64,000 bases of DNA, from positions 8,148,112 through 8,212,111 of the forward strand of contig OY979719.1 in assembly GCA_963855995.1 (NCBI GenBank), read 5' to 3'. The DNA is from Muricea muricata (taxonomy: Eukaryota > Cnidaria > Anthozoa > Malacalcyonacea > Plexauridae). A program made the position numbers and the translations under genes. Shown in pieces: positions 15,920-64,000 of this stretch (position 1 is the first letter of the stretch; each line of letters opens with the position of its first letter). The notes beneath the pieces were generated by a model. It ran no database searches and was not told where the DNA came from. It saw only the letters and a list, made by a program, of their open reading frames with translations.

Positions 15920-16022
15920 TTTGAAATATATCCCAAAAATGTAACTTCAAATCAACGTTAAATTTGTGTCAAAACAAATCTAAATGCATACAGTTTTCCC
16001 TCGTTTCTCCTTGGGTGTATTT

Positions 16023-31862: not shown

Positions 31863-32214
31863 TACAATATACAATATACAATATACAATATACAATATAC
31901 AATATACAATATACAATATACAATATACAATATACAATATACAATATACAATATACAATATACAATATACAATATACAATATACAATATACAATATACAA
32001 TATACAATATACAATATACAATGTACAATGTACAATGTACAATGTACAATGTACAATGTACAATGTACAATGTACAATGTACAATGTACAATGTACAATG
32101 TACAATGTACAATGTACAATGTACAATGTACAATATACAATATACAATATACAATATACAATATACAATATACAATATACAATATACAATATACAATATA
32201 CAATATTCAATGTA
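31863..32214. repeat. Heptamer minisatellite (ACAATAT)n with an (ACAATGT)n core
   Basis: About 50 seven-base units: a block of ACAATAT, a central block of ACAATGT (about 32020-32130), then ACAATAT again. Because seven is not a multiple of three, all six frames are open; the resulting ORFs are artefacts. It may have grown from the 3' tail of the adjacent - strand LINE. Confidence 0.97.
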
Positions 32215-32256
32215 CAAAAAATACACACAGTATAAACATACAGTTAAACATTAGAT

Positions 32257-45022: not shown

Positions 45023-45167
45023 CAGTGTGTCCCAGAAAAAAGGCTACCCTTTGATGTTAAACGTTAGCGCCGCACGTTCGAATTTAAAGGGAGTTAAAAC
45101 ATTCAAATTCGAACGCTCGACACTGGCGCTTGATTTCAAAGGGTAGCCTTTTTCTTGGGACACCCTG
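45023..45167. mobile_element. 145-bp mariner-like MITE
   Basis: CAGTGTGTCCCAGAAAAAAG and CTTTTTCTTGGGACACCCTG are inverted (about 32 bp with three differences) and flanked by TA. The CAGGGTGTCCC end is a common mariner form. Confidence 0.8.
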
Positions 45168-45368
45168 TATGCATCAAAATCTAAGTTAATCCTTTGTAAA
45201 TACAGTGCTTTTTATTTTAGTGAAATAGTTTTTATATATACTATGTTTTATGTTACACGAAATCAAACAGTGTGTTTAGTTTTTCTGTACACGTATGATT
45301 GTATCATATTATGGCTGCTAATCTTTAGATGAAAATGAATGTTTTTTTCATTGATTTTTAGTGGCAAA

Positions 45369-48300
45369 ATGTCTGTTCGACGCACTTATTTAAGAGCTGA
45401 GGGTTCAGGTATGTTTGGGGGTTAATATTTGGAATCATTTATTTTTTAATGTTTTACTCCAATTCTATAAACAGCGCAAATATAACTGTGCCGACAAATA
45501 ATGGTCTTTATCTGGTTCTTGAATTACCAGAAATTGGCCGCATTGTGATTATTAGACCACATTATTTAACAACCATATTACGATCTTGAAATCTCTACGA
45601 GGTGATGGTGGATAGTCGACTATCGTCTTTTAGAAATCGAGACCGAATTACTTCGCCCACGTACCCACCTTAAGGCAAATTAGTTGACTAACCCCACCCA
45701 CCCTATAAAAATATGGATATTCTACTACTCAACTTCTTAAACTGTAAATACATCATGTAACTATAGTTATAAATATGTTTAGCATTTAAATGACTGTCCA
45801 ATAAAGAAGAAGAATAAACAGACTGTACCGCCTTTGATGACGAACATATATACAATCTAACAACCACGGCACAAATTATATTGTGCAACGTGCCGTGTAA
45901 GATCAAGCAGTTTTAGAAGCAAAAAGAAAACTTTATCATCTGGCCACGGACAGAATTTTTTGACCACTGCATGATAGACATGAGATGAACGAATTAACCT
46001 ACACGTACCATTTTAGCAAAAAAATTTCAACGAACCTTTAATAAAGTACGATAATATGAGCGTTTTTAGAGATTTTACGTATAAATTGCATTACATTGAT
46101 GGAAATTTTAGTTTCCAAGTCTGACTTTTGTTTTAAAGTGTCAACAATTAACATAAAATATATGTCATTCATTTTGGCAATTGAACAATACCGCCATCTC
46201 ACGGTTTTTGCCAAGGCTTTTAACCGCACACTTCGTCAACGGCGAAGCACACATAAGCGCAGGAGAGCAAGGTCCATAACCGTAAGGGCCCTGCCAGGCA
46301 CCGCATTTCTGTCTCAAATTTTAGCAGAAGAAAGGGATTTGCTTGCTATAATATACCTGTGTTAAGTATTAATCGATAATTTACCTTACTTAATTACCAG
46401 GGTTTGGTTGTATAAAAAAGTTAATAAAATTAACTATGACAGTGGGAACGTCAACCTATCAACTACATGTTTTTTATTTGATCACTTTTTGACTACAAAA
46501 CAGTGATTAAAAAGTGATTTTTAAAGCGTGTTTTACACAACCGGCCCTAGGTTTGTTGTGGGCGTGGTGTCCTTGAACAATATTTGCAATATTTTTTATG
46601 AAAATGTCTGTTTTTAATTTTCAGATTATTCGAGGTCCGATGCCTGGGAAGGTATGTCACTTTGCTAGAACGAATATATATGACATAACTTTCTAAATTT
46701 GTTCATTACTATACCGGGTGTGTACAAAAAATAAACAAATTTAAAATAGCTCTCAACCTCCCAAATTTTGCCAACCAACGATTTGCCCGATTTATTAATC
46801 AAACATTTATTTGTCTTACTCAATTACCTGACTTGATGTGAGCGTGGAGTCCTTGAACAATTTTTGCAATTTTCTATAATTTTTTTAATTTGGGGATGAT
46901 CCGAGTTCCGCTGTATAATTCCAGCATTAACTATATGCAACAGTTTCTCTTTCATAAATTCACCATGCCAATTCCTGAAATACCATTATTAAACAATGGT
47001 CGGATATGTTTTGGCTAACTTTCAGTAATCATGCATTTATCGTTTTAACGTTATATTTCAAATTTGAAACAAAATACAAATATTACAAATGTTACTCTGC
47101 TGAATTATATTGGGATTTATACTCAAGGCTTAGTGTGGTTCTTTATGGATTGCCAGAAATTTGAGAGAAAATTTGTTGTCTTAGAACCCATTAGATCACA
47201 ATATAATGAATTAGCCTGCATTATATAGATTGCATTAGCTGCAACGTTTTAGACTGCTTTAAACTGTAACAGAAACGTGTAAACAATGAGTGTTTATGTA
47301 CTATTTAAAACACGAGCAGGGGTGTTTTATTAGGTATAAAGACACGAGCACGAAGCATGCGAGTGTTTTAAATGGCTTCAAAAACATTTGCATAATAAAG
47401 CCAAATCTTTATATAAAAATCTTTAGATAAAAATCTTTAGATAAAAGTCTTTATATAATTTGTATGACAATCATCTTTTGTATTATTGCATAATGAAGTG
47501 TTCCCTAGCAGGTATAAAGAGGCATGCACGTGACTTATTTAGCACTGAATATTGGATAATTAGTTCATGAATAATTATCATTAATTAAGTAAAGGTTGAA
47601 GGGCATTTTCGTTAAGGAAGCGTACGAAATTTTAACGGATTATTAGGACTTTTATTCGTTATTTCGGTTTTTTTGTTGCGGGTTTTGGATTATCTTTTCT
47701 GGATTTTCGCATTTTCTGGACCACCGGGGTCCCTCAAACGCAGTTTTATGCTTGCAAAGGTTCGAAAGAAAAATGCACGAGGGTTTCTGCAGGTCTGGCC
47801 AACCCAATGTATAGGCCATGTGGATATGCCCGCAACCTCCCGTCCGTTTGTCTCTAGGGAATTAACACCTGTATTAAAACAAGTCAATTCTAAGGTCGTC
47901 ACCAAAAAACACTGGCTTTTCTAGTTTATCCCTTATTTGGCAACACCAAATAACCGAAGCAACCGAAAAACAAGTAATGATGTTTTCAAATTGCGCTCCA
48001 TTGGAAATACACTATATTTTTTATGAGAAGTATATAACCAGTTTGTATTGGGAAGCGGTCATGAAATAAGTGATGGAGAATATTTTTGATTTTGTCAACA
48101 AAATTTTATACCCCCTCAAGTTTGTCAGTTAATGTTTGGTACCCCATGCACATGATGGAGCCATGTTTTCATACCCCACCATAAATTGACAAGAGTATTA
48201 TATTTCTATGCAGTGCATAACAGACGTTGCAAACAAAGTACAAATAAAAGCAAATAAAGTATAAAGGCATACTATTTTATGCAGTGCTGAACGAAACTGG

Positions 48301-51300
48301 TTGTTGGACGACACCATTGATCTGTTGCACAGTATGGCAGACAACAACATTTAAAAATGGTTACTCTGTATTAAGTTTGCTGTGTAGTAGTTTCCCTTTG
48401 CAACGGCTTTTGGCTCTTCATTCATACACTCCTCCTTATGCGCCCATGAAAAGGAATAAAATATCTCAAGAGATAAAGTCAGGTCTACAAAAATCCCGCC
48501 CATTCCTACGTTAGGTATAAGCGATAGACGCCGAGAACGAACGCAATTACTGTTTTTTCATTACCTAAATCAAAAGCCTTAACTAGGAACGTCTAACGTT
48601 TGTCTCCACCGATTGGATTGTGGAATATCCTGTGGTGTCTTGTCTGGATTAGAAAAATTTTGATTATTTCTGGGCGGACGACTAGATATACTACCGGGCA
48701 TTATTAGAGCATGATGGGATGGAAACTTTTAAAATTTGCTTCGGTCGACTACTTCCAATAAACGCATATTATGGATATTTATCGTGCAGCTTTATAACAT
48801 AAAGCCGATCCAAGATGGAGAACAAACAACAGCTCTTAGCGAGTCGGTTGTCCCATAATCACGTGCAAAAAATTCCATGGCTTTAGTATATAGTCAGTGA
48901 GCACTTTCGTTTGTGATAAAGTTTTAATTCTTAAAAAATTAACTCAATAAACATAGTTAATATTATATACAAAATAATGAATGTTTATGAGCGCAATGGC
49001 AATATTTTCATGAGGTGAAACGTGGAATATTCCAACCGTATATTGTATAATATGGTCAAGTTAGATTTCATCAAAAGTTGTTCATAAGTGGAGATCGAGT
49101 CACAAAGACTACTGACCTTAGACCTCTTTCGTTCATTCGCTCAAGTTTATTCCTATCACTGGACTTGAAATGCCAGACAAGGCTACCGTCATTAAAGTAT
49201 GGCACAAATGCTGCCTCGTAAATATGCAGTTTTATTGTAGTGGATATTAATTTTCCGAGTCTCGCGAAGAATCTGATTCTCTTGCTGGTATTCCTACAAA
49301 TATATGACACATGATCTGAAAAGTTCAATTGTTTACTCCAAGAAGCTTCATCTGGGCTAATACTTGATTGTCAATGTCTGCCTCTGTGATATCACGTTTA
49401 CCTTTAGTCATCATGTCATAACCTGATATTTACTATAAGGTTCTCTTTTGGGTAGTTCACGTTATGCCTCTCACTAGTAATCTTGCTATCCATCTTCATG
49501 ACCTTTGCAGAGTCCTCCATTGTCCATGTCTTACCTTGTGTTTACGATCCGCAAAGTAGGATTCTAGTAATGTTAAGGAACTATTTGATATACTTATGCC
49601 TGAAGTTTATAGAGCAACAATGATGGAGACATACAATCGAAGGGCTTGCGCATATACTCCTACAACTTTGTTCTGATCAAGTCCCTGCTTCTAGTTTATA
49701 GTTGGTCTTGCAACTATACATTTTCCTGTGCAGTTACATAATTGCTTCCAAAGAACAGCGATCAGTCTGTTCAAAAGATAATCGCCTTTTTGGAATAATG
49801 ACATCCATTCTCTCTATTTCCAGTCAGGGCTATTTATAGGCCCTGTATATATTTAGCAAATACTTCTGCCGCTCAGCGGTCACTAAAACTTGAAACCAGG
49901 ATGGCGCAAAATGTGGTGTCGATACGGCCTCACTTCGCCAACGGTGAAGCAAACACGAGGTCCATAACGGCGGGGGAGGGGAGTTCTCACATCCCGTGCA
50001 TATATTTGCATCTCATTTGTCACTACATGGGTGGGGAAGCCCTGTCAAGAAATGCATGAGTACCTTTTCACTCAGCCTGATCTTGTTTCCCCCAGCTTTT
50101 CTAGAGACGCTAGCCCCCAGGAACCGCACTCTCGTCTCCCGAATTTTGCCAACAAACGATTTGCTCGATTTATTAATCGAACATTTAGCTTACTCAATTA
50201 CCTGATTTTCTGTGAGCGTGGAGTCCTTGAACAACGTTTGCAATTTTTTATATATTTGTTTTAATTTTGAGACGAATCGAGTTCCACTGTATAATTCCAG
50301 CATTAACTATATGTAACTGTTTCTCTTTAATAAATTGACCATGCCAACTATGTCCAATATTTTCTGAAATACCATAATTATACAATGGCCGGATATGTTT
50401 AGGCTAAGTTTTGGTAATCATACATTTATCTTTTAACGTTTCATCTCGAATTTAAAACAAAATACATATAGAATGTTTCTCTGGTGAAATATTTTGCGAT
50501 TTATACCCAAGGCTTTGTGTGGTTCTTTATGGATTTTCACGTTCATATCCTATTGTCGTACATAGATCACAATATAATGAATTAGCCTGCATTATATAGA
50601 TTGCATTACAACGTTTTAGACTGCCTTAAACTGTAGCAGAAACGTATAAACAATGAGTGTTTATTTTCGCATTTTCTGGACCAACGGGGTCTCTCAAACG
50701 CTGTTTCATGTTTGCAAAAGGTTCGAAACAAATATGCACGAGGATTTCTACAGGTCTGGCCGACCCAGTGTATAGGCCATGTAGATATGCCAGCAACGTC
50801 CCGTCCGTCTGTCTCTGGGGAGACACCTTTATTAAAACAGGTCAATTCTAAGATTGTCACAAAAAATATTGGCTTTTCTAGTTTATCTCTTATTTGGCCA
50901 CAACCAAAAGCACAAGGGTCGGTCAACCGAAAAATCTTAGTTAAAAGTAATGTTGTGCTGTAATTGCGCTCCATTCGAAATACACTATAATTTTTATGGG
51001 AAGAATGTAAGCAGTGTATATTGGGGAGCGGTCATGAAGTAAGTACTACGACGGGATGGACAATATTTTTAATTTTGTCAACAAAATTTTATACCCCCTC
51101 AAGTTTGTCAGTTAATATTTGGTAGGCCTACCCCATAGAGATGATGGAGCAATGTTTCATACCCCACCATAAAATGACAAAAAAATATTATCTTTCTATG
51201 CAGTGCTTAACAGACGTTGCAAACAAAGTACAAATAAAAGCAATTAAATAAAGTATGAAGGCATACTTTGAATGAAGTTGAACGAAACTAGGTTGGACAA

Positions 51301-54300
51301 CACCATTGATCTATTGCACAGTATAGCAGACAACAATATTTAAAAATGGATGCTCTGTGTTTGTTGTGTAGTAGTTTGCGGTGTAGTAGTTTCCCTTTCC
51401 CTTTTCATTCATACACTCATCCTTATGGGCCCATGAGAAGGAATATAATGATGAAACAAATAGCAACTGCAAAGTAGACCAGCTGTGTAATGTCAAATAG
51501 TTCGTGAGACAATGATGGCAGTGATGTATGAAAAATGTTTGTATGTATGCAAAGTGATGTATTCAAAGCAGACCAGAACAGAAGCACAAACTAGAATTAG
51601 AACAAATAAATTTTGTTTCATGCCCCCTCTTTAAAGTCATAAATATATTCATACCCCACCCTGATACCTTAAGAAAATTCCTACCCCATGCCAATATCCT
51701 TCGCCTTGGGGTAGCACTTATATTATGACCGCTGTCTTGGGGGTGACTGGTTATTTTTATGTGAAAATGATTTTTTTCTTAATTTTTAGAATATCTTCAA
51801 AGTTTGCCAGAAGGTATGTTCAGACTAAATTTTGGTAACCATTTATTATTTTTTTAATGTTTGTCAAGCGAAATATTAAATGGAAATATAACAGAAATGT
51901 AGTTGCGCTAAAAAATATAACTTGATTTATGCACTACACAAGACTTGTGTGGTTATTTACGAATAATGAAAATTTTTGTCTAAATGTTGATGAGAAATTG
52001 CATACGTCAGCCTACATTAGACTGTCTTGTTGTGGATGTTACAAAACTCTCAAGAGAAAAAGTCAGGTCTACAACCAATCCCGCTCATTCCCACTTTAGG
52101 TATAAGAGATAGACGCCGAGAACGAACGCAATAACTATTGAGGATTTTTCATTACCTAAATCAAAAGCCCTCACTGTGAACGCCCAACTTTTGTTTGCAA
52201 GGATTAGATTGTGGAATATCTTGTGGTGTTTTGTCTGGATTTCAGATTTGATTATTTCAGGGCGGACACATGAGCAATTATACTACCGAGCATTATTAGA
52301 GCATGATAAAATGGAAATTCTTAAGTGTATAAAGAAAATTCGCTTCAGTCGAATATTTCCAATAAACGCATAAAAGTTTATCATCGATAATTATCGTACA
52401 GCTTTATAATATAAAGCTGATCCAAGATGGACAACAAACAACTGATCCTGGCGAGTTGGCTGTCGTCTAATCACGTGAATAATATTCCATCACTTTAGTA
52501 TATAGTCAGTGAGCACTTGCGTTTGTCATACAATTTTAATTCTTAAAAATTTAACTAAATAAACATAGTTAATACTAAGAATATTTTCATGAGGTGAAAC
52601 ATGGAATTCCATCGCATATTGTGTAATGTGATCAAGTTAGATTTCATTAAAATTTGTTCATAAGTGGAGTTCCAGTCACAAAGATTACTGCTCTTAAACG
52701 TCTTTCGTTCATTCACTCAAGTTTATTCCTCTCAATAGACTTAGAAAAATGCCAGACAAGACTTATAAATATGCAGTTTTATTGTAGTGGATATTAATCT
52801 CGTGAAGAATCTGATTCTCTTGCTGGTATTCTTACAAATATATGACACATGATCTGAAAAGTATCTCACGTCTAGGTGCAACAGGCGCTGGGGGAGGTAT
52901 GCTCTAAGATACTGGCAAATTAAGGAGGAGATTGCTCCGTGAGCTAGTATTTTACAAGTAGAAACTGAGAAAACAAAAACACTTACTGTTAAACAAATGG
53001 ATACTATCAAGACCAATGTGAACCATTGATTGTGTACATCTTTACACATTCAACAATTAGCACTTTTGTTGGTTTTCCCTGAGTCTTTTATCCTCAGCAA
53101 CCAGCCTTGTTTTGAATTGTTTGATGCAAAGAGAACTATTTGCATCAATGCAACGCTTGGTAGGGAAGGCAATAGCCAATATATAGCCTTGGAGAAAATT
53201 TCGATCAATGGTGTTCAGTATAAAGCTTACTTATTTTATATTGGATCATTAATGTAACTGAAGTTCATAGTCGTAGAATCTTATAGTTTTATGATTACAA
53301 TCTTAAATACAATGCGTTAGACCTTGTAAGATCACCATTTGACAAATCTGCATAGACACTGTATTTTATATATTAAATAGGTATTTGCAGCAATATAATC
53401 TATTATGTAGTACTGTATCAATTTATAAGGCTTTAAAGTGCCTATGACACGAAAATTTTTATTACATAATGAGAAAGAGTACTTAAAACTGTAGTAGAAG
53501 TTCTTTTGTACTTTTCCGCTGCAACGTTTTGTTGATGAGATATTTCAGTTTGAATTTTTTGTTTTGTCGGCTAATTACGTCATACTTTGCATAATGAGGC
53601 ATTAGAAAGTAGATTATAAAGTTGTTTTCCTATAAAGAGACGGCGTGCAACATTAATGAGATGCTTATGTTTGTCCTTAATCTACATATCCTTTCAATAT
53701 TACGAGAATTTTGCTCATTGAAGACATAGATAACTGGTATTCAACAACAACTCATTATGCAAAGTGTGACGTAAGTTAGCATCCAAAACAAAAAATTCAA
53801 ACTGAACTATCTCATCAACAAAACGTTGCAGGGCAAAAGTTTAAAAGAACTTGTATTACAGTTTTAAATACTCTTTCACATCATGTAATAAAAATTTTGG
53901 CGTCATGGGCAAATCTTGGTGAGCAGCAAATTTCATATAAACAAAGATTATACTTCACACTTTCCGGTCGAAATGTATGGAATACAAGTGGTATGACGTT
54001 TTCCAAAGGGTGAATGAGCCACATTATGCAACGCATGGGAGACTAGAAACTATAAGAAAGCGCGGGAATAGCCCCTGCTGCGAGCCCCATATGCTGGAGC
54101 CCCCCGCGTGAATTCCCGACTTTTTTCAATTGTGTGAATGAGCCAGGGTTCAAGGTAAGTTTCTGCTTGCAAAATTACACTTTTTAAGTCTTTTAATTAG
54201 TTTTTTACCTTTTTGTATCAGGATATAATGAGTTCTAGGAAAAGATCGAGGTCTCCGAGCAGTCATTCTTCAAAAGAACGATCAGGAAAGCACTGGAAAA

Positions 54301-57300
54301 GCAGCAAACGTCGTCGCTCTCATGAAGGCCAATGTGGCACCGATACAACATCTACAAGCGGTAATCCCGTAGCATTTACCGAACTTTTGAAGCAAATGTC
54401 CGGTATTTCTCAGGCGGTTAAGAACCTAGGTGAACGTCTCACTAATTTGGAAACAACAGCCGCCTCGAATGGCCCTGGACGAAGCAACAACAACGTTAAC
54501 GTCCAGGCAATGGCTGCCAGCGATTGCCCTGTTGCAACACAAGCTGGCGAAGCCAGTTTTTCGAATGAAATAGACTCAATGGATCAGTTATCAGTTGTGG
54601 TCACACACGACCCAGACTTATTAGATCCAATTGCTCCAGAAACCCTGGAAACTGACTTAGGCCACGGAGATGGCCCACAAACGAGCGAATCGCTTAACAA
54701 CGACAGTACTTTGTCGACGAAGGTGAAACAGTCTGGTCAATCACTCGAGGAGAAACTCGGACATGACGAATCGGCCCTAAAAGGGCAGTTATTTGTTCCG
54801 GGTGATCACGATCCTAGTTGGGCAACTTCGGACTCTTTTAAAAGTTTTTTGGAGACTAATTTTCGTCGGAGTTTATCGTCCTCTCAAATATTTAGCATTC
54901 TAGAACAGACGTCCTTGCCTGACCTGGATGTCTTCACAACACCAAAACTGGACAAAACAATCATAGATCAGGTACCGTCCCAATTTAAAAAATCTGTAGA
55001 AATACGCGATAAAGAGTTACTTAAAGTTCAGAGGCATGTCTTAAATGTTGCTGCCCCTTTGACCGCTTTACACGATTTACTAGAATATAATCAAACGGTT
55101 TCTGTAACCGAAACATTGGGTATTGTGGAAAAAGCACTTTGTTTGTTAGGCAATGCCTCAAATTCATTGTCTGTTCTACGCAGATATAAAGTTTTGTACG
55201 CTATAAATCCAAAGAAAGTTTCTCTAGCTGAAGCTTCATATCCTAATGCCGAGAAGAAGCTGTTTGGCAGCGGCATAACTAAGATTGCATCAGAGAGTGC
55301 TGATATTACGCGAAATTTGCAAAAGAATCTCTCTCAATCCCATTCCTACTCAAACAATCAATTTCAGTTTGGTAAATATCAGTCAAAAAACGACAAGTTT
55401 CGCCCGCACTCGTTCGGGCACCAAAAATTCGCTCAAGCAAAAAAGAGGCCCTTTCAACAGCAGCCCTTTCAGCAACAACCCTTTCGCCAAAGCCAACGCT
55501 TCAACAGCAACTCCCATTGACCGGTCGTCTCCGTTTTTTTCATGCAAATTGGCTAAATATCACTCGGGATCAGTTTATTTTAAATGCAGTTCAAGGTTTC
55601 AAAATTTGTTTTCGTTGCACGCCTGTTCAGTCAGTTGTACCTCGGGTATCAGATCAAAGCTCAATAATCAAAAACGAAATTGTATCACTACTAAAAAAGG
55701 GGGCAATACGACAAGTCCCTTTCAGCCACGACGGTTTTTACCACAGATTGTTTCTTGTTCCGAAAAAAGGCGGCGGCCAGAGGCCGGTGTTAGATTTGAG
55801 TGCGTTAAACCAGTTTATCGAAACCGAGCACTTCAAAATGGAAAATTTAGTAACATTGAAGTCTCTCCTCAACAAGGGGGACTATATGATAAATTTAGAC
55901 CTCACAGACGCCTACCTGACGGTCCCCATGCATCCCGACTCCCGAAAATTTCTTCGTTTTCTGTTGGGGGACAAAACTTACGAATTTACAGCAATGCCAT
56001 TCGGCCTAAATGTGGCCCCCAGGCTGTTTACAAAAATCATGAAGCCGGTTGTAGCCTCACTGAGGAGTCAAGGGGTTCGTCTGATCATTTATCTCCACGA
56101 CATTTTAATTATAGCTTCTTCAATCGAGACGTTGAATCGCCACAAAACACTAGCTATCAGCTTGCTCGAATCCCTCGGTTTTCTAATAAATTACGAGAAG
56201 TCGAATCTAACTCCATCCCAACAAATTGTGTTCTTGGGAATGCTGGTGGATTCGGCGTCAATGCAATTCATATTACCCCAACAGAAAGCTGTACAGATTC
56301 AAAAGGAATGTCGCCTCCTCCTAAACACAAACAGGCCAACTATTCGCCATTTGTCTCGGGTCCTAGGGCTTCTCGAGGCATGTCGTCCAGCCGTATGGTC
56401 TGCCCCACTTCACTACCGTCAACTACAAACTCTTCAGATAAACGCTCTTCAGAGATGGGCGAATTACAACGCCCCGGTGGATTTGACACCAGCGGCCAAA
56501 TCAGACCTATCATGGTGGGTAACGACCCTACAAACCCCGCAAGGGAGTCCAATTGTTCCACCAATAGCAGACTTAACCATCTCCTCGGATGCTTCCAAAC
56601 AGGGGTGGGGGGCATCTTGGGGTTCCCAACGGACAGGAGGTCTTTGGAGCGAGAAAGAGTCTCAAGACCACATAAATGTATTAGAACTCCGGGCAGCATT
56701 CTTTGCCCTAAAGTCCTTTCTCCCGACCCAAACCAACACATAAATGTATTAGAACTCCGGGCAGCATTCTTTGCCCTAAAGTCCTTTCTCCCGACCCAAA
56801 CCAACAAAGTCATTTGCCTGAAACTAGACAATACCACAGCAGTCTCGTACCTAAACAACTTGGGGGGCACTCACTGCCCGCAACTTCTCCATCTAGCAAT
56901 AGCGATTTGGGATTGGTGCGAGAAGAGACACCTATTTCTTCTGGCACAGCATATCCCAGGCAAAACCAATGTGGAAGCGGATACCGAGTCCCGGGTGAGA
57001 CGGGATCTGAACGATTGGAGGATACCACCGAAAATCATAGCACCCCTTATAAGAGATTGCACGATAGATCTCTTTGCCTCCCGCCTCACACACCAACTAA
57101 AACGGTATGTCAGCTGGAGACCGGATCCGAGCGCGGTGCACAACGACGCCTTCACGATGGATTGGTCGAATCTGAAGGCATATGCCTTCCCTCCGTTCAA
57201 CTTAATTCCGTCAGTTCTTCAGAAGGCCAAGCAGGAACACGCGACTCTGGTGCTAGTGGCACCACTATGGACCACACAACCTTGGTGACCTCTACTGATA

Positions 57301-59808
57301 GAACTTATTGTGGATTACCCGGTATATCTGGGGAACAACCCCAAACTACTGCAAGACGTGTCCAGTCCAGGAGCGATGCACCCTCTTTTTCCATCTCTGA
57401 AGTTAGCCGTTTGGAGAATATCAGGCAACGTTACAAAACAATGGGAATTTCAGAAAAAGCTATCGAACTCCTCTGCAACAACACCAAGAGCTCAACCTCC
57501 AAAACATACAATGTTTCCTGGGCTCAGTGGAGTCGCTGGTGTTCGGAGAGGAAAAGTGATCCCGTATCATATCCAGTGTCTGACATTCTGACTTTCTTAG
57601 CGGAACAATTTTCACAAGGTAAAGAATACAGGTCTATAAATGTTCTAAGGTCTGCTATCTCTTCCGCTCACTGTCACATCGATGATAAACCGGTTGGACA
57701 GCACCCACTCATAGTTCGGCTAATGAGGGGTGTTTCCATTTCTCGCCCACCTCAACCTAGGTACCAAAAGACTTGGAATGTTTCTGTCGTTACGACACAC
57801 TTGGCGTCTTTAGGTTGCAATAAGACAATGTCTATAAAACAGCTTTTACAAAAGCTCTGCATGCTGATGGCTCTAACGTGCCCAGAAAGAAGCTCTGTTA
57901 TGGCTTCGTTGGACATTACTTACATGCGCCATTATCCAGAAGGCGTAAAGTTTTCTCACACTATTTTTCGCTAGCGAGCTCATAGTGGCAACTTGGGGGA
58001 ATCTGTTTATCCTAAGTTTACAGATGAATCTCTTTGTCCAGTTACTTGCCTGAGCGTCTACCTCGAGCGGACAAAAGACTGGCGAGCTACTAACAAGGAC
58101 AAGCCACGCTTATTTCTTTCCATCAAAAAGCCTCACAAGCCTGTATCGTCCTCGACGCTTCTCGATGGATTAAGGAAACCATATTTCAGTCTGGAATAAA
58201 GGACTTTTCCTTTAAAGGCCACTCAGTTCGTAGTGCTTCAACATCGGCAGCCCGGGCGTCTGGTTTATCTATCGACACGATCATTTCCATGGCAGACTGG
58301 ACAAATGAATCAACTTTTAAAAAATTTTATTGTAGACCTTCATTACCAGTTACGTATGGGACAACAGTTTTATCTAACTCAAGTTAGTTATTAACGCAGA
58401 GTTGATTTAAGTTCATATTAAATTCATATTTTATGGTTTACGTCTATGCGTTGTAATCTACCACTTGTATTCCATACATTTCGACCGGAAAGTGTGAAGT
58501 ATAATTAGAATTATACAAGCGCCGCGCTCGTATAATTCCGATTATACGAGCACTTGAAGGGAGAAATGTATGGTCCCGCCCTGCGTGCTTACGCTCGTCC
58601 CTCCCGACGTTTTCTTTAGGTTTTTAATATCTATTGATTGTGGTGGCCAGTATCTTTGGATTGCGCGTGGCATGTCTTCTGGTCTTCACAGTGCTTTAAA
58701 TAAGTCGGGAATTCACGCGGGGGGCTCCAGCATATGGGGCTCGCAGCAGGGGCTATTCCCGCGCTTTCTTATAGTTTCTAGTCTCCCATGCGTTGCATAA
58801 TGTGGCTCATTCACCCTTTGGGAAACGTCATACCACTTGTATTCCATACATTTCTCCCTTCAAGTGCTTGTATAATCGGAATTATACGAGCGCGCCGCTT
58901 CGCGGCGCTTGTATAATTCTAATTTCCCGTTGTAGTAGGTAATATTTCATCGAGTATTCTCAAGGGCCGTGACCTGACAGTTCAGTTGCGCACCGAGATG
59001 TAAATCTCAATCGTGAAATATTAGATAAATTAAAATAAGAATTAGTATGCTTACAGCACTCATATTGTTCTTTCCTAAAATGCTTTTCACACACATACAC
59101 GTTCCCGCTATTGATTTGTCGACGCAAACTGTCCTCCACAACACGGTCCTTCGTGATCACGCTTATCCAAGCTTCGCGTGTTTTCTTTGATAATTCATCT
59201 GTCTCTGCAGGAATTTTAAAGATTCACACTCCACTGTGCTTTCGACTTGTTGCGCAACCATATATGAAGCAAAGTGCTCCTGGCATCGCGAAATAATCGC
59301 CTAATTAAGTTCCCTCGGCTACATTGGTGACCAAAGACAATGAGGTTTTTAGTCACGTGATCGTATCTTCCAAACCTTGCCATTATATTAAAAATGTTTA
59401 TGGATTGGCAGAAACTTGGGAGGAAATTTTTTTGTTTGCGAACCACACTTTCTCTCCACGTTCATAATATCAAGAATTAGCCTGCCTTATATAGATTGCA
59501 TGAGATAAATTGTAGCAGACTGCATTAGACTTCATTACCCTGTACGCATCGTACTTTATTATAGACCACATTACTAGAGCACTATTGACATCATGATCGT
59601 TTTCTAAAATTTAGAACGTACAAAGAATGAGCGTTTATCGCAATTAAATTAATTAAATTCATACCTCATCCCAATCCTCCGCTCCGAGGTAGTATTTACT
59701 TTATGCCCTCTCGCTTGGGGCGTATCTACAATATTTTAATATCACTGGTTATTTTTATATAAATTGATTTTTTTCTTAATTTTTTAGAACAACGTCGAGA
59801 ATGGGAAG
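45369..59808 (+). CDS. Candidate micro-exon gene, 5' part, function unknown
   Basis: Four short exons with good splice sites and matching phase: 45369-45408 (ATG; MSVRRTYLRAEGS), 46625-46651 (27 nt; DYSRSDAWE), 51790-51813 (24 nt; EYLQSLPE) and 59788-59808 (21 nt; EQRREWE). Each ends GAAG or TCAG followed by GTATGT, and each starts after a T-rich tract and AG. All junctions are phase 1, so any exon can be skipped or repeated without breaking the frame. The joined 37 residues are charged and Glu/Arg-rich; no domain or signal peptide is seen. A non-coding stretch with an acceptor (TTTTTAG at 45361) precedes the ATG, so a 5' UTR exon must lie upstream. The gene would continue past the window. 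Introns are 1.2, 5.1 and 8.0 kb and contain duplicates of each other, LINE fragments and a DIRS element. Splice calls are by eye. Confidence 0.5.
46555..47010 (+). repeat. Exon-2 region and a decayed duplicate
   Basis: GGCGTGGTGTCCTTGAACAA before exon 2 recurs as GAGCGTGGAGTCCTTGAACA at 46841 and 50213, followed by TTTTAATTT and then an exon-like CGAGTTCCRCTG in place of CGAGGTCCGATG. These copies lack the exon 2 donor. GGATATGTTTTGGCTAACTT (46999) also resembles the donor side of exons 3 and 4 with GT changed to GA. Confidence 0.6.
46760..49440 (+). repeat. Intronic duplicated block, copy 1
   Basis: Collinear with 50145-52870: ATTTTGCCAACCAACGATTT, TTCGCATTTTCTGGACCA, the GTATAGGCCATGT block, TTTGTCAACAAAATTTTATA and the AGACGCCGAGAACGAACGCA block. 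About 80-90% alike by eye. Contains a - strand LINE fragment. Confidence 0.75.
49071..49328 (-). pseudogene. LINE reverse-transcriptase C-terminal fragment
   Basis: Codes NFSDHVSYICRNTSKRIRFF and KLHIYEAAFVPYFNDGSLVW, the thumb region. The same fragment recurs at 52741 and 60891, showing it travels with the duplicated block. Confidence 0.75.
50145..52870 (+). repeat. Intronic duplicated block, copy 2, carrying exon 3
   Basis: The second copy of the block at 46760; it includes the 24-nt exon at 51790, which has no clear counterpart in copy 1. A third partial copy covers about 59330-61230 and carries exon 4. Confidence 0.75.
52741..52870 (-). pseudogene. LINE reverse-transcriptase fragment
   Basis: Codes FSDHVSYICKNTSKRIRFF and KLHIYK with an internal deletion relative to 49071. 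Confidence 0.65.
53440..53912. mobile_element. ~470-bp MITE with ~170-bp inverted arms
   Basis: TGCCTATGACACGAAAATTT mirrored by AAATTTTGGCGTCATGGGCA; arms include AACGTTTTGTTGATGAGATA and TTCAAACTGAACTATCTCAT counterparts. The TSD is not clear. It lies just before the DIRS element. Confidence 0.75.
53971..54120 (+). repeat. DIRS left inverted terminal repeat
   Basis: 150 bp complementary to 58704-58853; the terminal extension 53948-53970 (TTATACTTCACACTTTCC) lies outside it. Confidence 0.9.
54155..54221 (+). other. Likely leader intron of the DIRS element
   Basis: CAAG|GTAAGTTT at 54155 and TTTTGTATCAG|G at 54221, a 67-bp intron ending 7 nt before the first ATG. Confidence 0.55.
54228..55520 (+). 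CDS. DIRS ORF1, gag-like protein (430 codons)
   Basis: Open from ATG 54228 to TGA 55518. The start is Arg/Ser-rich (MSSRKRSRSPSSHSSKERS), then a short possible coiled coil (ISQAVKNLGERLTNLE), an acidic middle, a conserved-looking helical region (about 230-370) and a Gln/Phe-rich, basic tail (QQQPFQQQPFRQ). This is the usual make-up of DIRS gag-like ORFs: low complexity with no zinc knuckle. It overlaps the RT frame by 4 nt. No break is seen. Confidence 0.85.
   Translation: MSSRKRSRSPSSHSSKERSGKHWKSSKRRRSHEGQCGTDTTSTSGNPVAFTELLKQMSGISQAVKNLGERLTNLETTAASNGPGRSNNNVNVQAMAASDCPVATQAGEASFSNEIDSMDQLSVVVTHDPDLLDPIAPETLETDLGHGDGPQTSESLNNDSTLSTKVKQSGQSLEEKLGHDESALKGQLFVPGDHDPSWATSDSFKSFLETNFRRSLSSSQIFSILEQTSLPDLDVFTTPKLDKTIIDQVPSQFKKSVEIRDKELLKVQRHVLNVAAPLTALHDLLEYNQTVSVTETLGIVEKALCLLGNASNSLSVLRRYKVLYAINPKKVSLAEASYPNAEKKLFGSGITKIASESADITRNLQKNLSQSHSYSNNQFQFGKYQSKNDKFRPHSFGHQKFAQAKKRPFQQQPFQQQPFRQSQRFNSNSH
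55517..57288 (+). pseudogene. DIRS reverse transcriptase/RNase H, frameshifted
   Basis: Frame 55517-56743 has RT boxes VLDLSALNQFI, INLDLTDAYLTVPMH and MPFGLNVAPRLFTK, but the catalytic YLDD box reads YLHD (His codon 56096-56098), expected to kill polymerisation. RNase H begins ISSDASKQGWGASWG. A 68-bp tandem duplication (56671-56738 = 56739-56806) then shifts the frame; the rest continues to 57288 (LDNTTAVSYLNN, HIPGKTNVEADTESR). No ATG lies at the start, which overlaps the gag stop, so translation by readthrough or re-initiation is likely in the family. Confidence 0.92.
57294..58387 (+). pseudogene. DIRS tyrosine recombinase, one stop and one frameshift
   Basis: N-terminal SAM-like helices (SKTYNVSWAQWSRWC; ILTFLAEQFSQGKEYRSIN) lead to the catalytic domain: the first Arg in CPERSSVMASL, the H-x-x-R box in GHSVRSASTSAARASG and the Tyr in FKKFYCRP. 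An in-frame TAG at 57972-57974 and a frameshift near 58160 break it. All catalytic residues survive, so decay is recent. The family enzyme inserts the circular DNA copy. Confidence 0.9.
58461..58573 (+). repeat. DIRS internal complementary region
   Basis: The left half is complementary to the element's left terminus (CCACTTGTATTCCATACATT...CCGGAAAGTGTGAAG); the right half is complementary to its right terminus (CACTTGAAGGGAGAAATGTA). It is the template that lets the RNA ends be joined into a circle. Confidence 0.9.
58704..58853 (+). repeat. DIRS right inverted terminal repeat
   Basis: 150 bp complementary to 53971-54120; beyond it a right extension reaches about 58924 and contains the GC-rich hairpin GCGCCGCTTCGCGGCGC. 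Confidence 0.9.
59055..59286 (-). pseudogene. THAP zinc-finger exon with a premature stop
   Basis: From ATG 59286 the - strand reads MPGALCFIYGCATSRKHSGV, a TGA (59226-59224), then IFKIP, REAWISVI and VYVCEKHFRKEQYE, ending at a donor (TGCT|GTAAGC, 59055). This is the THAP layout: Cys-x4-Cys, the conserved Trp, then Cys-x2-His. THAP domains bind DNA and occur in host regulators and P-element transposases. The TGA sits where family members usually have Ser before Phe/Ile. Downstream exons are not identified; the DIRS element lies in that direction. It may be a dead gene, a polymorphic allele, or a sequence error. Confidence 0.75.
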
Positions 59809-60740
59809 GTATGTTCAGGCTAAATTGTGATAACCATTTATTATTTTTTTTATTTTTTAACAGAAATGTAATTGCGCTGAAAAATATTAGTTGATTTATA
59901 CAGCACACAAGGCTTTGTGTGGTTATTTGCGAATAATGAAATTTTTTATTAAAATGTTATTGAGAAATCGCATACGTCAGCTGCATTTGACAGTCTTATA
60001 TTGTATTGACCTACATTCAAAGGCGTTCTGTGGATGTGACAAAACTCTCAAGCGAAAAAGTTACTAGGTCTACAACAATCCCGCCCATTCTTACTATAGG
60101 TATAGACGCCGAGAACGAACGGAATAACTATTGAGGATTTTTCATAACCTAAATCAAAAGCCTTAACTAGGAACGTCCAACATTTGTCTCTATCGATTAA
60201 ATTGTGGAATATCCTGCTAGATTTGTATATAGTAAAGCCTTCTTGAATGCACTTTGGCTTCCACGTGACCAGAGGCAATGAGTTTTTAGTCACGTGATCG
60301 TACCTTCCATACCTTCCCTTTACATTAACTATGTTTATGGATTGCCAGAAAATTTTGAGAATTTTTTTTGTTTGCGAACCATGCACACTTTTCCTCCACG
60401 TTCATTATATCATACCGTAATTAGCCTGCATTATATAGATTGCATGAGATAAACTGTAGCAGACTGAGTCAGACTTCATTACCCTGTACGCATCGTACTT
60501 TATTATAGGCCACATTACTAGACCACTATTGACATCATGATCGTTTTCTAAAAGTTAAAACGTACAAAGAATTAGCGTTTATTGCTCATACTTCATGTTA
60601 GGTGTGCAACAATCCCATCCATTCTTACTATAGGTATAGACGCCGAGAACGAACGCCATAACTGTTGAGGATTTTTCATTACCTAAATCAAAAGCCTTAA
60701 CTAGGAACGTTCAGACACATGACCAGATATAGTTGATAAA
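59330..60740. repeat. Partial third copy of the intronic block, itself partly doubled
   Basis: AGTCACGTGATCGTATCTTCC at 59351 recurs at 60287, and TAGACGCCGAGAACGAACG at 60102 recurs at 60640. Exon 4 of the micro-exon gene lies at 59788 within it. Confidence 0.65.
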
Positions 60741-60890
60741 TATAGTTAATACTACATACAAATAATGAATGTTTATGAGTGTAATGATAAGAATATTTTC
60801 ATGAGGTGAAACGTGGAATATTCCAGTCCCATTTCGTATAATGTGGTCAAGTTAGATTTCATTAAAACTTATTCATAAGTAGAGTTCCAG

Positions 60891-61211
60891 TCACAAAAGA
60901 CTACTGCTCTTAGACCTCTTTCGCTCAAGTTTATTCCTATCATTGGACTTGAAATGCCAGACAAATCTACCATCGTTCAAGTATGGCATAAATGCTGCCT
61001 TGTAAATATGCAGTTTTATTGTAGTGGATATTAATTTTCTGAGTCTAGTGAAGAATCTGATTCTCTTGCTGGTATTCTTAAAAATATGTGACACATGATT
61101 TGAAAAGTTCAATTCTTTATCCAAGGTTGCTCCAAGAAGCTTCATGTGGGCTAATACTTGATTGTCAATGTGTACCTCTGTGATATCATTTTTAACTTTA
61201 GTCATCATCAT
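60891..61211 (-). pseudogene. LINE reverse-transcriptase C-terminal fragment, longest of the three copies
   Basis: Codes LLGATLDKELNFSNHVSHI and KLHIYKAAFMPYLNDGRFVW; an N-terminal extension is preserved relative to 49071. No ends. Confidence 0.75.
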
Positions 61212-61326
61212 AACCTGATACGTATTTTGATAAATTAACCTGATATTTTGATAAATTTTCCAAAGAACTGATCCAGAGGAACATTCTGGGCAACCTGGGT
61301 ACCAAAACTTAATGAGTTACTTATAA

Positions 61327-61495
61327 AACAAATAATGAATGATTGTATTCGTGAAATGGTAAGAATATTTTCATTCGGTTAAAGATGGAATGTTTCATTC
61401 AACTCGGCTATCGCCTCGTTCAATGCAACATTCCATCTTTCACCTCATGAAAATATTCTTACCATTGCACGAATAAAAAACATTCATTATTTGTA
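61327..61495. repeat. ~170-bp palindrome
   Basis: ACAAATAATGAATG...GGTAAGAATATTTTCAT is mirrored by ATGAAAATATTCTTACC...CATTCATTATTTGT. Single arms of the same sequence occur at about 48970, 52575 and 60760. Confidence 0.8.
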
Positions 61496-61754
61496 TAATT
61501 ATAACCGGCAAATCTTTCTCAACCTCAGATGTCTTAACAGTGATTGCAAATGTTTAGCTGACTGACAGTAAAGTCGTTTTAATTAACTGAACATACGTTT
61601 CAATCATCGGTCATCCTGGTAATCAGAACTGCCCGCATATCAGTAGAAGAAGTTGAAAATTACTTCAGTCACATAATTCTTTCAGTATAGTCTTAAATAT
61701 TTCTAAAATTCCCAGTTGGACGGATTGTCGGGGAGGGAAAATGCGTTTTTTATG

Positions 61755-61790
61755 TTGGAAGACGTCGGGAGGGAATGCTCAAGCTAAATT
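61755..61790 (+). pseudogene. Decayed copy of the micro-exon at 59788
   Basis: GAAGACGTCGGGAGGGAATG followed by CTCAAGCTAAATT resembles the exon 4 body plus its donor-side intron (TTCAGGCTAAATT). The donor GT is gone. Confidence 0.4.
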
Positions 61791-61894
61791 TTTCAGCAAT
61801 TTAATGTTTTATATATTAATATTAATGTTTTATCAGACATTTAAAACGCTTGGGGTTTGTGTGACTCTATAAGCAGGCTGAATGCCTCTCATAT

Positions 61895-62205
61895 GCTTTT
61901 CAACTCAATTCTTGACAAGCACGCCGCTATTCAACGTGTTAAGCTGAGGACCCGCCCTAGCCCTTCGTAACAGATGAGATAAAGGTATTAATGCAAACTA
62001 GGGATGAGTGGCGTAGACTGGCCGAGAAAGCCAATAATTCCAATGCCCGGTCAACATATAGATTGTTAAAGTGCGAAGTAAGGTGTGAGTTGAGAGAGGC
62101 TGAGAAGGAGCTGTTACGAAACAAATAAAAGAAAACCCTAATGATTCGGGCTGTTTATGGAAAGTCATTCGCTCATGCCTTCCAAAGAAAGTAGCTGGCG
62201 TCAAA
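61895..62205 (+). pseudogene. LINE fragment between endonuclease and reverse transcriptase
   Basis: Codes LDKHAAIQRVKLRTRPSP, then TRDEWRRLAEKANNSNARS and ELREAEKELLRNK, the linker region of CR1/L2-type ORF2, with stops and frameshifts. Confidence 0.65.
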
Positions 62206-62381
62206 GCGTAGCATATATAAAGTAAAACGTTTTTGTGAAACGTTATTACGCAATTGCTGACGTGAGAGGACGGAGATCTTTTAGACTAGAAAAGCTTACT
62301 TGTGATCAGCTATATTTCCGAGTATTTTATTACTATTTTTGATTATAAATTACGTTTTTACACTGGTGGCAGCGGAAAACG
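62206..62381 (+). other. Probable 5' LTR end and primer region of a Ty3-type element
   Basis: A TATA-like GCATATATAAAG (62210) is followed about 150 bp later by ACACTGGTGGCAGCGG, a common primer-site context just after an LTR. The LTR start could not be found and may be truncated. Confidence 0.5.
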
Positions 62382-64000
62382 ATGGAAGAACAACAAGAGC
62401 TAAGGTTAGAAGTTCAAAGACGTACCAATCTTGTCGAAGAGACGCAGAAACCGGATGAAGAGACAACGCTATCGACGGCGACGAGTTTTGTGCCGAGATT
62501 AACAACTGGAATGATGCTCAATGTTGCCAACAACTAGCTGTTTCGCTTCTAGGCAGAGCACAACGAATTTACTTGTCATTGCAAGACGGCGAAAAGCCAA
62601 CTTTTGACCTGATGGTAAAAGCACTTCAAGCTAAGATTCAGCCCGAGCAACAACGAAAAGTGCACAAGCTATCCTTCAGCACCAGAAGACGAAAGAATGG
62701 CGAGGGCCTAGGGGATCGTGGATTTAGCAACCAACCTGAGACAACTTGCTGCCTTGGCATATCAAAACACTGAAAATTCGCGTGTTGAAGAAGAGATCGT
62801 TGAGCAGTTTATCCGTGCACTTGACACTAAAGAATTGCGTGTTAGCATGAATCAAAGTGACCCAAAAACCTTGGACGAAGCTGTAAACGTTGCCTTAAGG
62901 TTGGAAAGTATCCATCTTGCTGTAATTCAAAATAATGCAAAAATCAATATGGCGGAAATGTTAGAGAACCACATAGAGATTATAAAAAAATAGAGGGGAC
63001 ATCGTAGGATAAATTCAGTCAAACGAAAGGGACAAATTGAAGCATGCTAATGGGGGCCGAATTTAAGACCCGGATGTATGGTTGTGCGCCTATTGGCTGG
63101 TTATCGACTTTTCACAGCAAGAGAATGAGAAAGCTCGAGAAAAAACTTTTTTCCGATTTTTTCACACTCAAAGTTTTTTATGTAAAAACAAAGGCGAAGA
63201 TGTTAAAGATTAGTGCGGGATTGCTTAAAATCTAAATAGATCGCAGTATTGTGATTGTACAACTTGTTGTACCTCTAAAACAATTTTGATAACTGTTTGA
63301 AGGCAAAAAGTTCAATTTGTATCCAGATGTTGGTTAATTTGGCAGATATTTTACAAAACCTCGCTGCAAAAAGCCGGTCGAAAACTGGTTGCTATGCGTT
63401 GCTAGGGAGAACCTAAGGTTGAAAAACTACTTTGTTTACACAAAAAAATGGCTGTCTGCACCTAAAATTACAAAAACTAGAAATTTACAACATATTTTCT
63501 CAATATAGTTAATATCTGTGTGATCCATGGTCATAAAGACAAGCAAAAATTGACAAAAATTGTGTACTTTCATCGCTATACATCCGGGACTTAAGTTTGG
63601 CCCCCATTAGATTTGTTCAATTTGTCCCGAGATTCGTCCCCAGATGCCGCCTCTATTGATTTATAATCTCTGTGGGGAACCATGACAACGAGAGAGAAAC
63701 CGCTGATCTAAACACGGCAGGCGCCAAAACAGAAAATGAGCCAATACCAGCTTGAGCGAAGATATATTTTAATCAGCGAGTGCGCCTTTTGGAAAGGATG
63801 AATTCTTTGGTTATGGATAATTCCAAACCCAAACAGAAGAAAGCTAACGTTCAATGCTATAAATGCGAAAACTTTGTTGTATTCTAACGATCGTAAAGTT
63901 TACCGAGTTACTATTGCAAAGCCTGTCGTCGTACCAGCTTATACAATGGCTACAGTTTCGTGTAAAGTGGAAAATGTTCTGTTTAAAATGGCGAAGTTGG
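62382..64000 (+). pseudogene. Ty3-type gag-pol, 5' part, frameshifted, runs off the window
   Basis: ATG 62382 begins MEEQQELRLEVQRRTN; a frameshift near 62480 leads to gag sequence CCQQLAVSLLGRAQRIYLSL and, after another shift, NLRQLAALAYQ and LDEAVNVALRLES. The frame is then cut by a MITE (62971-63675). After it come NVQCYKCENF (first half of a zinc knuckle) and AYTMATVSCKVEN, typical of the stretch before RT. A deletion seems to have removed the protease. Dead copy. Confidence 0.75.
62971..63675. mobile_element. ~700-bp MITE inserted in the gag
   Basis: Arms of about 100 bp contain AGAGATTATAAA, GGGACAAATTGAA and AATGGGGGCC, mirrored at the right. GAACC(A) lies at both borders and the gag frame (EN-HDNER) resumes across it. 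Confidence 0.7.

Follow-up and report, generated by a model that had tools for sequence, protein, structure and literature searches.

A tandem array of predicted Roc-COR and Death domain genes in the octocoral Muricea muricata, with an arm apparently built from symmetric micro-exons

A stretch of 64,000 nucleotides on contig OY979719.1 (C4) of the 453-Mb genome of the octocoral Muricea muricata (the window, C4:8148112-8212111, + strand) contains what we take, with moderate confidence, to be the 5' part of a gene for a ROCO-type GTPase, one of about 17 in tandem; the protein would carry a variable arm built from cassettes and act in innate-immune or cell-death signalling. This gene, named gene A here, occupies positions 45369..64000 of the window (+ strand) and continues on C4 far past its end, as the first-pass annotation of the window had anticipated; when 240 kb of additional C4 sequence was read, further micro-exons, a Roc-COR exon and a Death-Death exon were found downstream. 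In order of reading, gene A comprises a start exon, then nine micro-exons, all symmetric and 15-27 nt long, spread over 127 kb, the Roc-COR exon and the Death-Death exon. Both this architecture and the array to which the gene belongs are well supported by the sequence read, while the splicing of the exons, the helical form of the arm and the immune role of the protein are inferred.

Gene A and its exons

The sequence read consists of the window and of the 200 kb and 40 kb that follow it on C4 (304 kb); coordinates of this concatenation continue the window numbering, with 64001-69000 given as N. The first coding exon (45362..45408, + strand) has its ATG at 45369 and encodes MSVRRTYLRAEGS plus one nucleotide. 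A 40-nt coding start had been proposed, and its ATG stands; the exon itself measures 47 nt, being set behind an AG acceptor at 45360-45361 and including a 7-nt leader. The presence of an acceptor 7 nt before the ATG implies a 5' leader exon upstream or a trans-spliced leader.

Three micro-exons follow in the window, all on the + strand and of phase 1-1: exon 2 (46625..46651, 27 nt, DYSRSDAWE), exon 3 (51790..51813, 24 nt, EYLQSLPE) and exon 4 (59788..59808, 21 nt, EQRREWE). They lie where the first-pass annotation had placed them, with AG directly before, GTATGT directly after and a frame that stays open when they are joined to the ATG at 45369. Three is the number read in the window, but not the total for the gene: six further micro-exons, also on the + strand, were located with the splice flanks of the first exons as queries, at 77125-77148 (24 nt, EFLQKHHE), 109389-109403 (15 nt, ESRSS), 136760-136786 (27 nt, EYLLPSLPE), 137951-137971 (21 nt, ETDQKLE), 153176-153196 (21 nt, EERREFE) and 173396-173416 (21 nt, EWDRRLE). 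The exons of gene A, as read, have phase-1 ends throughout, from the start exon to the Death exon; since all the micro-exons are symmetric, any gain, loss or skip preserves the frame.

A strict scan of both strands of the 304 kb, requiring AG, a pyrimidine tract, a segment of 12-44 nt (divisible by three or not) and GGTATGT, returned nine sites on the + strand, each of which has a length that is a multiple of three, stays open in phase 1 and belongs to this micro-exon family; eight are micro-exons of gene A and one belongs to the next gene, while exon 2 escapes the strict rule. On the - strand a single site was returned, containing a stop. Chance thus appears an unlikely cause of the pattern.

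The peptide encoded by the micro-exons of gene A has 67 residues, 49% of which are E, D, K and R; the arm is probably helical. No hydrophobic stretch or signal peptide was seen by eye in the N-terminus MSVRRTYLRAEGS, to which an upstream exon could add residues, or in the charged cassettes that follow it. Rfam gave nothing at gathering score within the 64-kb window.

The Roc-COR exon (182920-184878, + strand) is an open frame of 1,959 nt with a phase-1 acceptor and a phase-1 donor, and the Death-Death exon (204571-205148, + strand) encodes two Death stretches followed by a stop. Pfam recognised the Roc domain at 31.9 bits (cut-off 27) and the Death domain, in two stretches, at 48.4 bits (cut-off 22.6); COR-A was matched over positions 1-141 of 143 with an E-value of 3.1e-8, at 34.1 bits, slightly below its curated cut-off of 35.3. 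In the translation of the Roc exon, the G-motif letters GSDRVGKSS, DFAG and TNVD were noted by eye, the first of which we take to be the P-loop. A phmmer search against solved structures gave eight matches up to E 10: a leucine-rich-repeat protein, 4wnr, was the best (7.9e-7; its best-aligned stretch covers the P-loop region only), followed by three Rab-family proteins (0.0018-0.019) and four LRRK2 entries (0.6-0.9); the first four are presumably bacterial or archaeal Roc or Roc-COR proteins. Joined together, the exons found in gene A would form a coding sequence of 2,778 nt, or 926 codons including the stop, with direct joining and inclusion of all of them by splicing being the predicted arrangement.

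Repeats and possible mobile elements lie near these exons. A hairpin-like inverted repeat (45030-45165) that by eye resembles a small mobile element directly precedes the start exon. Micro-exons 3 and 4 are separated by an intron that holds overlapping frames of 439, 455, 669 and 420 aa (54201-57974, + strand), retroelement-like by eye, and two tandem copies of a 68-bp unit at 56669.

The tandem array on C4 and its paralogues

Gene A lies in an array of about 17 side-by-side genes, all on the + strand, that covers 3.3 Mb of C4 (6.94-10.23 Mb). At the DNA level the start exon is matched 21 times across the genome: 15 matches are array start exons (C4 6.94-10.17 Mb, 82-100% identity), three are short C4 fragments, and the other three fall on C1 (one) and C3 (two). 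Matches to the Roc exon amount to 27 pieces: 17 in the array, all on the + strand, free of stops and 81-100% identical, and ten outside it, nine on C9 (42-53%) and a decayed one on C2. Of 18 matches to the Death exon, 17 belong to the array, all on the + strand and stop-free at 71-100% identity; the remaining match is at C4:205649 (- strand, 64%). For the unit carrying exon 4 there are 112 genome-wide candidates, 40 of which were scored; all 40 lie on the + strand of C4 at 6.94-10.21 Mb.

With 1 for the start exon, m for the unit, R for Roc and D for Death, the first eight genes read 1mmmmmmRD 1mRD 1mmmRD 1mmmRD 1mmmmRD 1mmmRD 1mmmmRD 1mmRD and the remainder RD 1mmmRD 1mmRD RD 1mRD 1mmmmmRD 1mRD 1mRD 1mRD. 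Each of the 15 array start exons is therefore followed by at least one micro-unit, then by one Roc exon and one Death exon. Every one of the 40 scored micro-units sits between a start exon and a Roc exon, intervals that make up 45% of the array; under uniform placement the log10 P of this outcome is -13.9, in a calculation that ignores the kinship of the units. The counts of micro-units per gene are lower bounds, as gene A itself scores three in the search and has nine micro-exons. Across the array the span from start exon to Roc exon varies from 49 to 174 kb and the distance from start exon to Death exon from 60 to 202 kb; for genes of 60-200 kb with such small exons, annotation as short Roc-Death genes is likely, and the arm would be missed. 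Two Roc-Death pairs (C4:8860076-8884846 and C4:9239496-9265108) have neither a detected start exon nor a scored unit of the exon-4 type.

The Roc exons of these two pairs have an equal score and are both 84% identical to that of gene A. Three pairs of start-exon regions (L001/L002, L003/L006 and L007/L008) are 98.8-99.7% identical over 2.3-3.2 kb while lying 0.4-1.8 Mb apart, a likeness that suggests recent long-distance exchange or duplication. The start-exon copies off C4 (C1:37982378-37982573, - strand, 90%; C3:58588414-58588611, 77%; C3:58547889-58547945, 81%) may be stray pieces or first exons that were translocated; neither Roc nor Death matches are listed for C1 or C3. On C9, related Roc exons form a second cluster at 10.22-10.50 Mb, on both strands, with three near-complete exons (48-49% to gene A) and pieces.

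The units themselves align within the region over 0.4-3.6 kb at 75-95% identity, and by these alignments they are duplicated blocks, each bearing an exon. Their cassettes differ between genes, with micro-exon lengths of 15-30 nt across the genes examined. Exon 2 has 27 nt at loci L003 and L006 (DDSSSDDVE) and 30 nt, with the donor GTATGC, in the next gene (DDSSSDDWEE); at the third exon found, two genes share EYLQSLPE, a further one has EILRSLPE and the next gene ETLRQIE. In one paralogue, copy O (start exon C4:9948035), the 3.2 kb surrounding the start exon match gene A at 99.66% identity; exons 3 and 4 have the sequence found in gene A, inside 1-kb blocks 99.9% alike, and the letters of exon 2 are also the same. 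The Roc exon of copy O lies only 64 kb from the start exon, against 138 kb in gene A, so that a different and much shorter tract must follow exon 4; in 1-kb pieces taken at positions extrapolated from gene A, the expected micro-exons were present in two and absent from six of the eight. The first-pass proposal that consecutive symmetric phase-1 cassettes could be gained or lost without damage to the frame is thus borne out by the paralogues, which differ in cassette content, in the length of exon 2 and in the span from start exon to Roc exon.

In the same pair of genes the Roc exon is under purifying selection: that of copy O is open and 91.3% identical to that of gene A, with indels of 27, 6 and 3 nt and a dN/dS of 0.45. 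By segment, the ratio is 0.22-0.42 in five of six and 0.84 in codon columns 81-150, past the P-loop.

Divergence of the cassettes and possible origins of the arm

The product that we propose would be an intracellular ROCO-type protein with a short start, a charged, probably helical arm, Roc-COR as a GTPase switch and a pair of Death domains at the C-terminus. Cassettes of 5-9 residues, one per symmetric phase-1 micro-exon, would make up the arm, and duplication or deletion of blocks with one micro-exon each would reshape it in the germline, the cassette cores being strongly diversified between some duplicates and the flanks not. The arm would decide which partner or ligand is engaged, or which sister protein is chosen for pairing; the Roc-COR switch would then change state, and the Death domains would recruit death-domain adaptors, leading to an innate-immune or cell-death response. 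The proposal builds on the observed gene order, phases and open frames, the order of elements in the array, the duplication of units, the divergence between exons and flanks in four units and the purifying selection seen on the Roc exon in one pair of genes.

These four are units 4, 9, 10 and 11 of gene A. Their 21-nt exons differ from one another at 3, 7, 7, 7, 9 and 9 positions of 21, all the changes being within the inner 15 nt, while divergence in the flanks, taken as 60 nt upstream and 300 nt downstream, is 4.7-7.1%. In a four-way alignment covering 140 nt upstream and 380 nt downstream, the mean pairwise difference is 0.333 in the exon and 0.070 outside it, and none of the 493 non-exon windows of 21 nt reaches the exon value; none of 383 does so when 60 nt up and 350 nt down are taken. 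On average the exons thus differ by 33% and their flanks by 6-7%. The nine exons form 36 pairs, of which only the 11 of equal length were tested, six among exons 4, 9, 10 and 11 and five with exon 5 or the exon of the next gene; eight of the 11, which are not independent, gave P <= 0.016 for an exon excess. By Nei-Gojobori counts on ten pairs (exons 4, 9, 10 and 11 and the exon of the next gene), non-synonymous changes (3-7.5) outnumber synonymous ones (0-2.5) in all ten, and exceed them per site in seven.

Several observations weigh against this picture. In a first, wider alignment block 54 of 651 non-exon windows matched the exon divergence, the top five at its 5' edge; none of these windows was left after trimming. 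Three of the 11 tested pairs lack a significant excess (P 0.056-0.11), and in three of the ten counted pairs, those of exon 11 with exons 4, 9 and 10, the synonymous rate per site equals or exceeds the non-synonymous one (2/4.0 against 7/17.0, 2.5/3.8 against 4.5/17.2 and 2/4.2 against 7/16.8 changes per sites); for these pairs, old cores with exchanged flanks fit as well as selection on residues. Exon 3 of gene A differs at 0 of 24 positions from that of gene 8704302, at 4 of 24 from that of gene 9760856 and at 1 of 24 from the duplicate A8 inside gene A itself, with flanks that differ by 1.1%, 7.7% and 2.9%, respectively, and hence with no clear exon excess. The excess of exon over flank therefore holds between units but not everywhere; either the cores diversified after duplication or old cores may have stayed distinct while their flanks were exchanged. 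The gene model has its own weak points: all the junctions of gene A are predictions from sequence alone, further exons may lie between 173416 and 182920 or between 184878 and 204571, the COR-A score falls just short, and the immune role is argued from the type of domain only.

Four other accounts of the micro-exons have to be weighed. The exons could form an alternative-splicing cluster, of cassette or mutually exclusive type, giving many arms from one gene as in Dscam or the schistosome micro-exon genes; nine symmetric exons of a single phase, with common GTATGT donors and long introns, from which any subset is frame-safe, make this a real possibility, though one we rate below even, and the symmetry would equally result from passive tandem duplication of exons, in which only symmetric copies survive. 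The same rating is given to an account based on gene conversion, in which the exon cores are old and individually conserved, the flanks are homogenised by exchange between units, and selection merely keeps the cores distinct. Exon 3, identical in gene A and the 8704302 gene, agrees with it, as do neighbouring blocks up to 95% alike, which frequent exchange would produce, and the synonymous rates of the pairs with exon 11; however, conversion tracts would repeatedly have to spare exactly the 21-nt exons, and exon 2 has changed between gene A (DYSRSDAWE) and L003 (DDSSSDDVE) inside an aligned block 96% identical.

A passive spacer, with micro-exons gained and lost neutrally and residues that matter little beyond being polar and helical, seems unlikely. 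It would account for the copies of units in decay, namely a degenerate donor-side copy at 50394..50441 (+ strand), with no usable exon seen and probably a decaying duplicate of a micro-exon unit, and the broken copies near 136637 and near 150436, the latter with its exon deleted; the exon 3 copies, with no clear excess over their flanks, are also in line with it. However, a spacer predicts divergence at the flank rate, whereas the exons of the four units diverge about five times as much as their flanks, and the predominance of non-synonymous changes in every counted pair, though not always per site, argues in the same direction. Least probable by far, and in our opinion hardly credible, is a micro-exon gene of the schistosome type for a secreted variable protein, the likeness that the first-pass annotation had drawn from exon sizes and symmetry. 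The start exon and micro-exons amount to 241 of the 2,778 coding nucleotides among the exons found (8.7%, against about 80% in schistosomes), a signal peptide is not evident by eye, and Roc-COR with two Death domains accounts for the greater part of the protein, so that the 3' exons, if joined, contradict it.

The ROCO-type reading with a variable arm can be extended to a clustered receptor family, in which a helical arm of heptad-sized micro-exons would serve as a recognition or pairing surface, diversified in the germline by block duplication and selection on the 15-nt cores as well as by combinatorial splicing, and coupled to Roc-COR and Death domains; this would amount to modular recognition of self and non-self or of pathogens in a non-bilaterian animal. 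We consider this extension speculative and rather improbable as a whole. Independently of it, if the arm does recognise something, cnidarians would possess in it a variable innate receptor of a new kind.

Two further candidates were rejected. A transposable-element origin of the units is at odds with the 40 scored copies, all on one strand within one gene array, and with the local 304 kb, where exon-bearing copies occur only downstream of the start exon and upstream of the Roc exon. Insect effector genes were ruled out by the mitochondrial gene order, by CCCTAA repeats at the end of C6 and by the protein domains; the mitochondrial contig (C74) is 19,292 bp long, and its first 1,800 bp carry cob and then nad6, as read by eye, with no tRNA found there, an order that we take to be octocoral. 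Among 20 contigs sampled, 12 (C1-C3, C5-C10, C12, C14, C16) measure 11.6-124 Mb and 8 (C18, C20, C69-C74) at most 0.31 Mb; together with C4 (19.2 Mb), and with C11, C13, C15 and C17 lying outside the sample, these sizes point to 16 or 17 chromosomes.

Elsewhere in the window, an unbroken frame of 1,440 aa (11624-15946, - strand) resembles a gag-pol retroelement by eye, and a TACAATA minisatellite of 50.7 copies (31863-32217) is open in several frames on both strands.

Comparison with known systems

DAPK1 is a metazoan ROCO protein with Roc-COR followed by Death. Gene A shares this order; it differs in having two Death domains and a micro-exon arm, and no kinase among the exons found. In some toxin or pheromone genes, coding exons evolve faster than introns; some of the coral duplicates likewise diverge more in their exons than in their flanks, but here the divergence concerns 21-nt internal cassettes within a single gene whose Roc exon is under purifying selection.

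Schistosome micro-exon genes have about 80% of their coding sequence in symmetric exons of 6-36 bp and products that are almost always secreted or membrane-anchored (PMC5825161). Gene A has in common with them consecutive symmetric exons within this size range, but it is 8.7% micro-exon, start exon included, and carries domains known from intracellular signalling. The KQY/KHI cassette effectors of aphids have signal peptides (PMC7495047), and the small exons of bicycle genes are mostly of phase 2 (PMC9168663). Both are large genes with many tiny exons, in one phase for bicycle genes, as in gene A; in the latter, however, the phase is 1 throughout, and the excerpts consulted mention no Roc-COR or Death domain for either insect family.

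No cnidarian Roc-COR micro-exon gene was described in the titles and abstract openings listed from the open-licence literature of PubMed Central, and the nearest published analogue that we found is the ROCO family of brown algae. In these GTPases, proposed as immune receptors, each leucine-rich repeat (LRR) has its own 72-bp phase-2 exon, and the exons are shuffled and alternatively spliced (PMC11378527). The likeness lies in the Roc-COR family and in N-terminal repeats carried one per symmetric exon of the same phase, nine of them in phase 1 upstream of Roc-COR in gene A; the difference lies in the exons, LRR-coding there and here charged cassettes of 15-30 nt in phase 1 (no LRR pattern was seen by eye in the micro-exons), and in the Death C-terminus of the coral protein. 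The array also offers a natural test of how symmetric micro-exons originate, since at least 40 related units are found at various stages of duplication, divergence and decay. Diversification of Roc-COR immune-candidate genes with one repeat per exon is already known, in brown algae; its appearance in a coral, with exons of about two helical turns and 17 arrayed genes that end in Death domains, would count as an independent invention.

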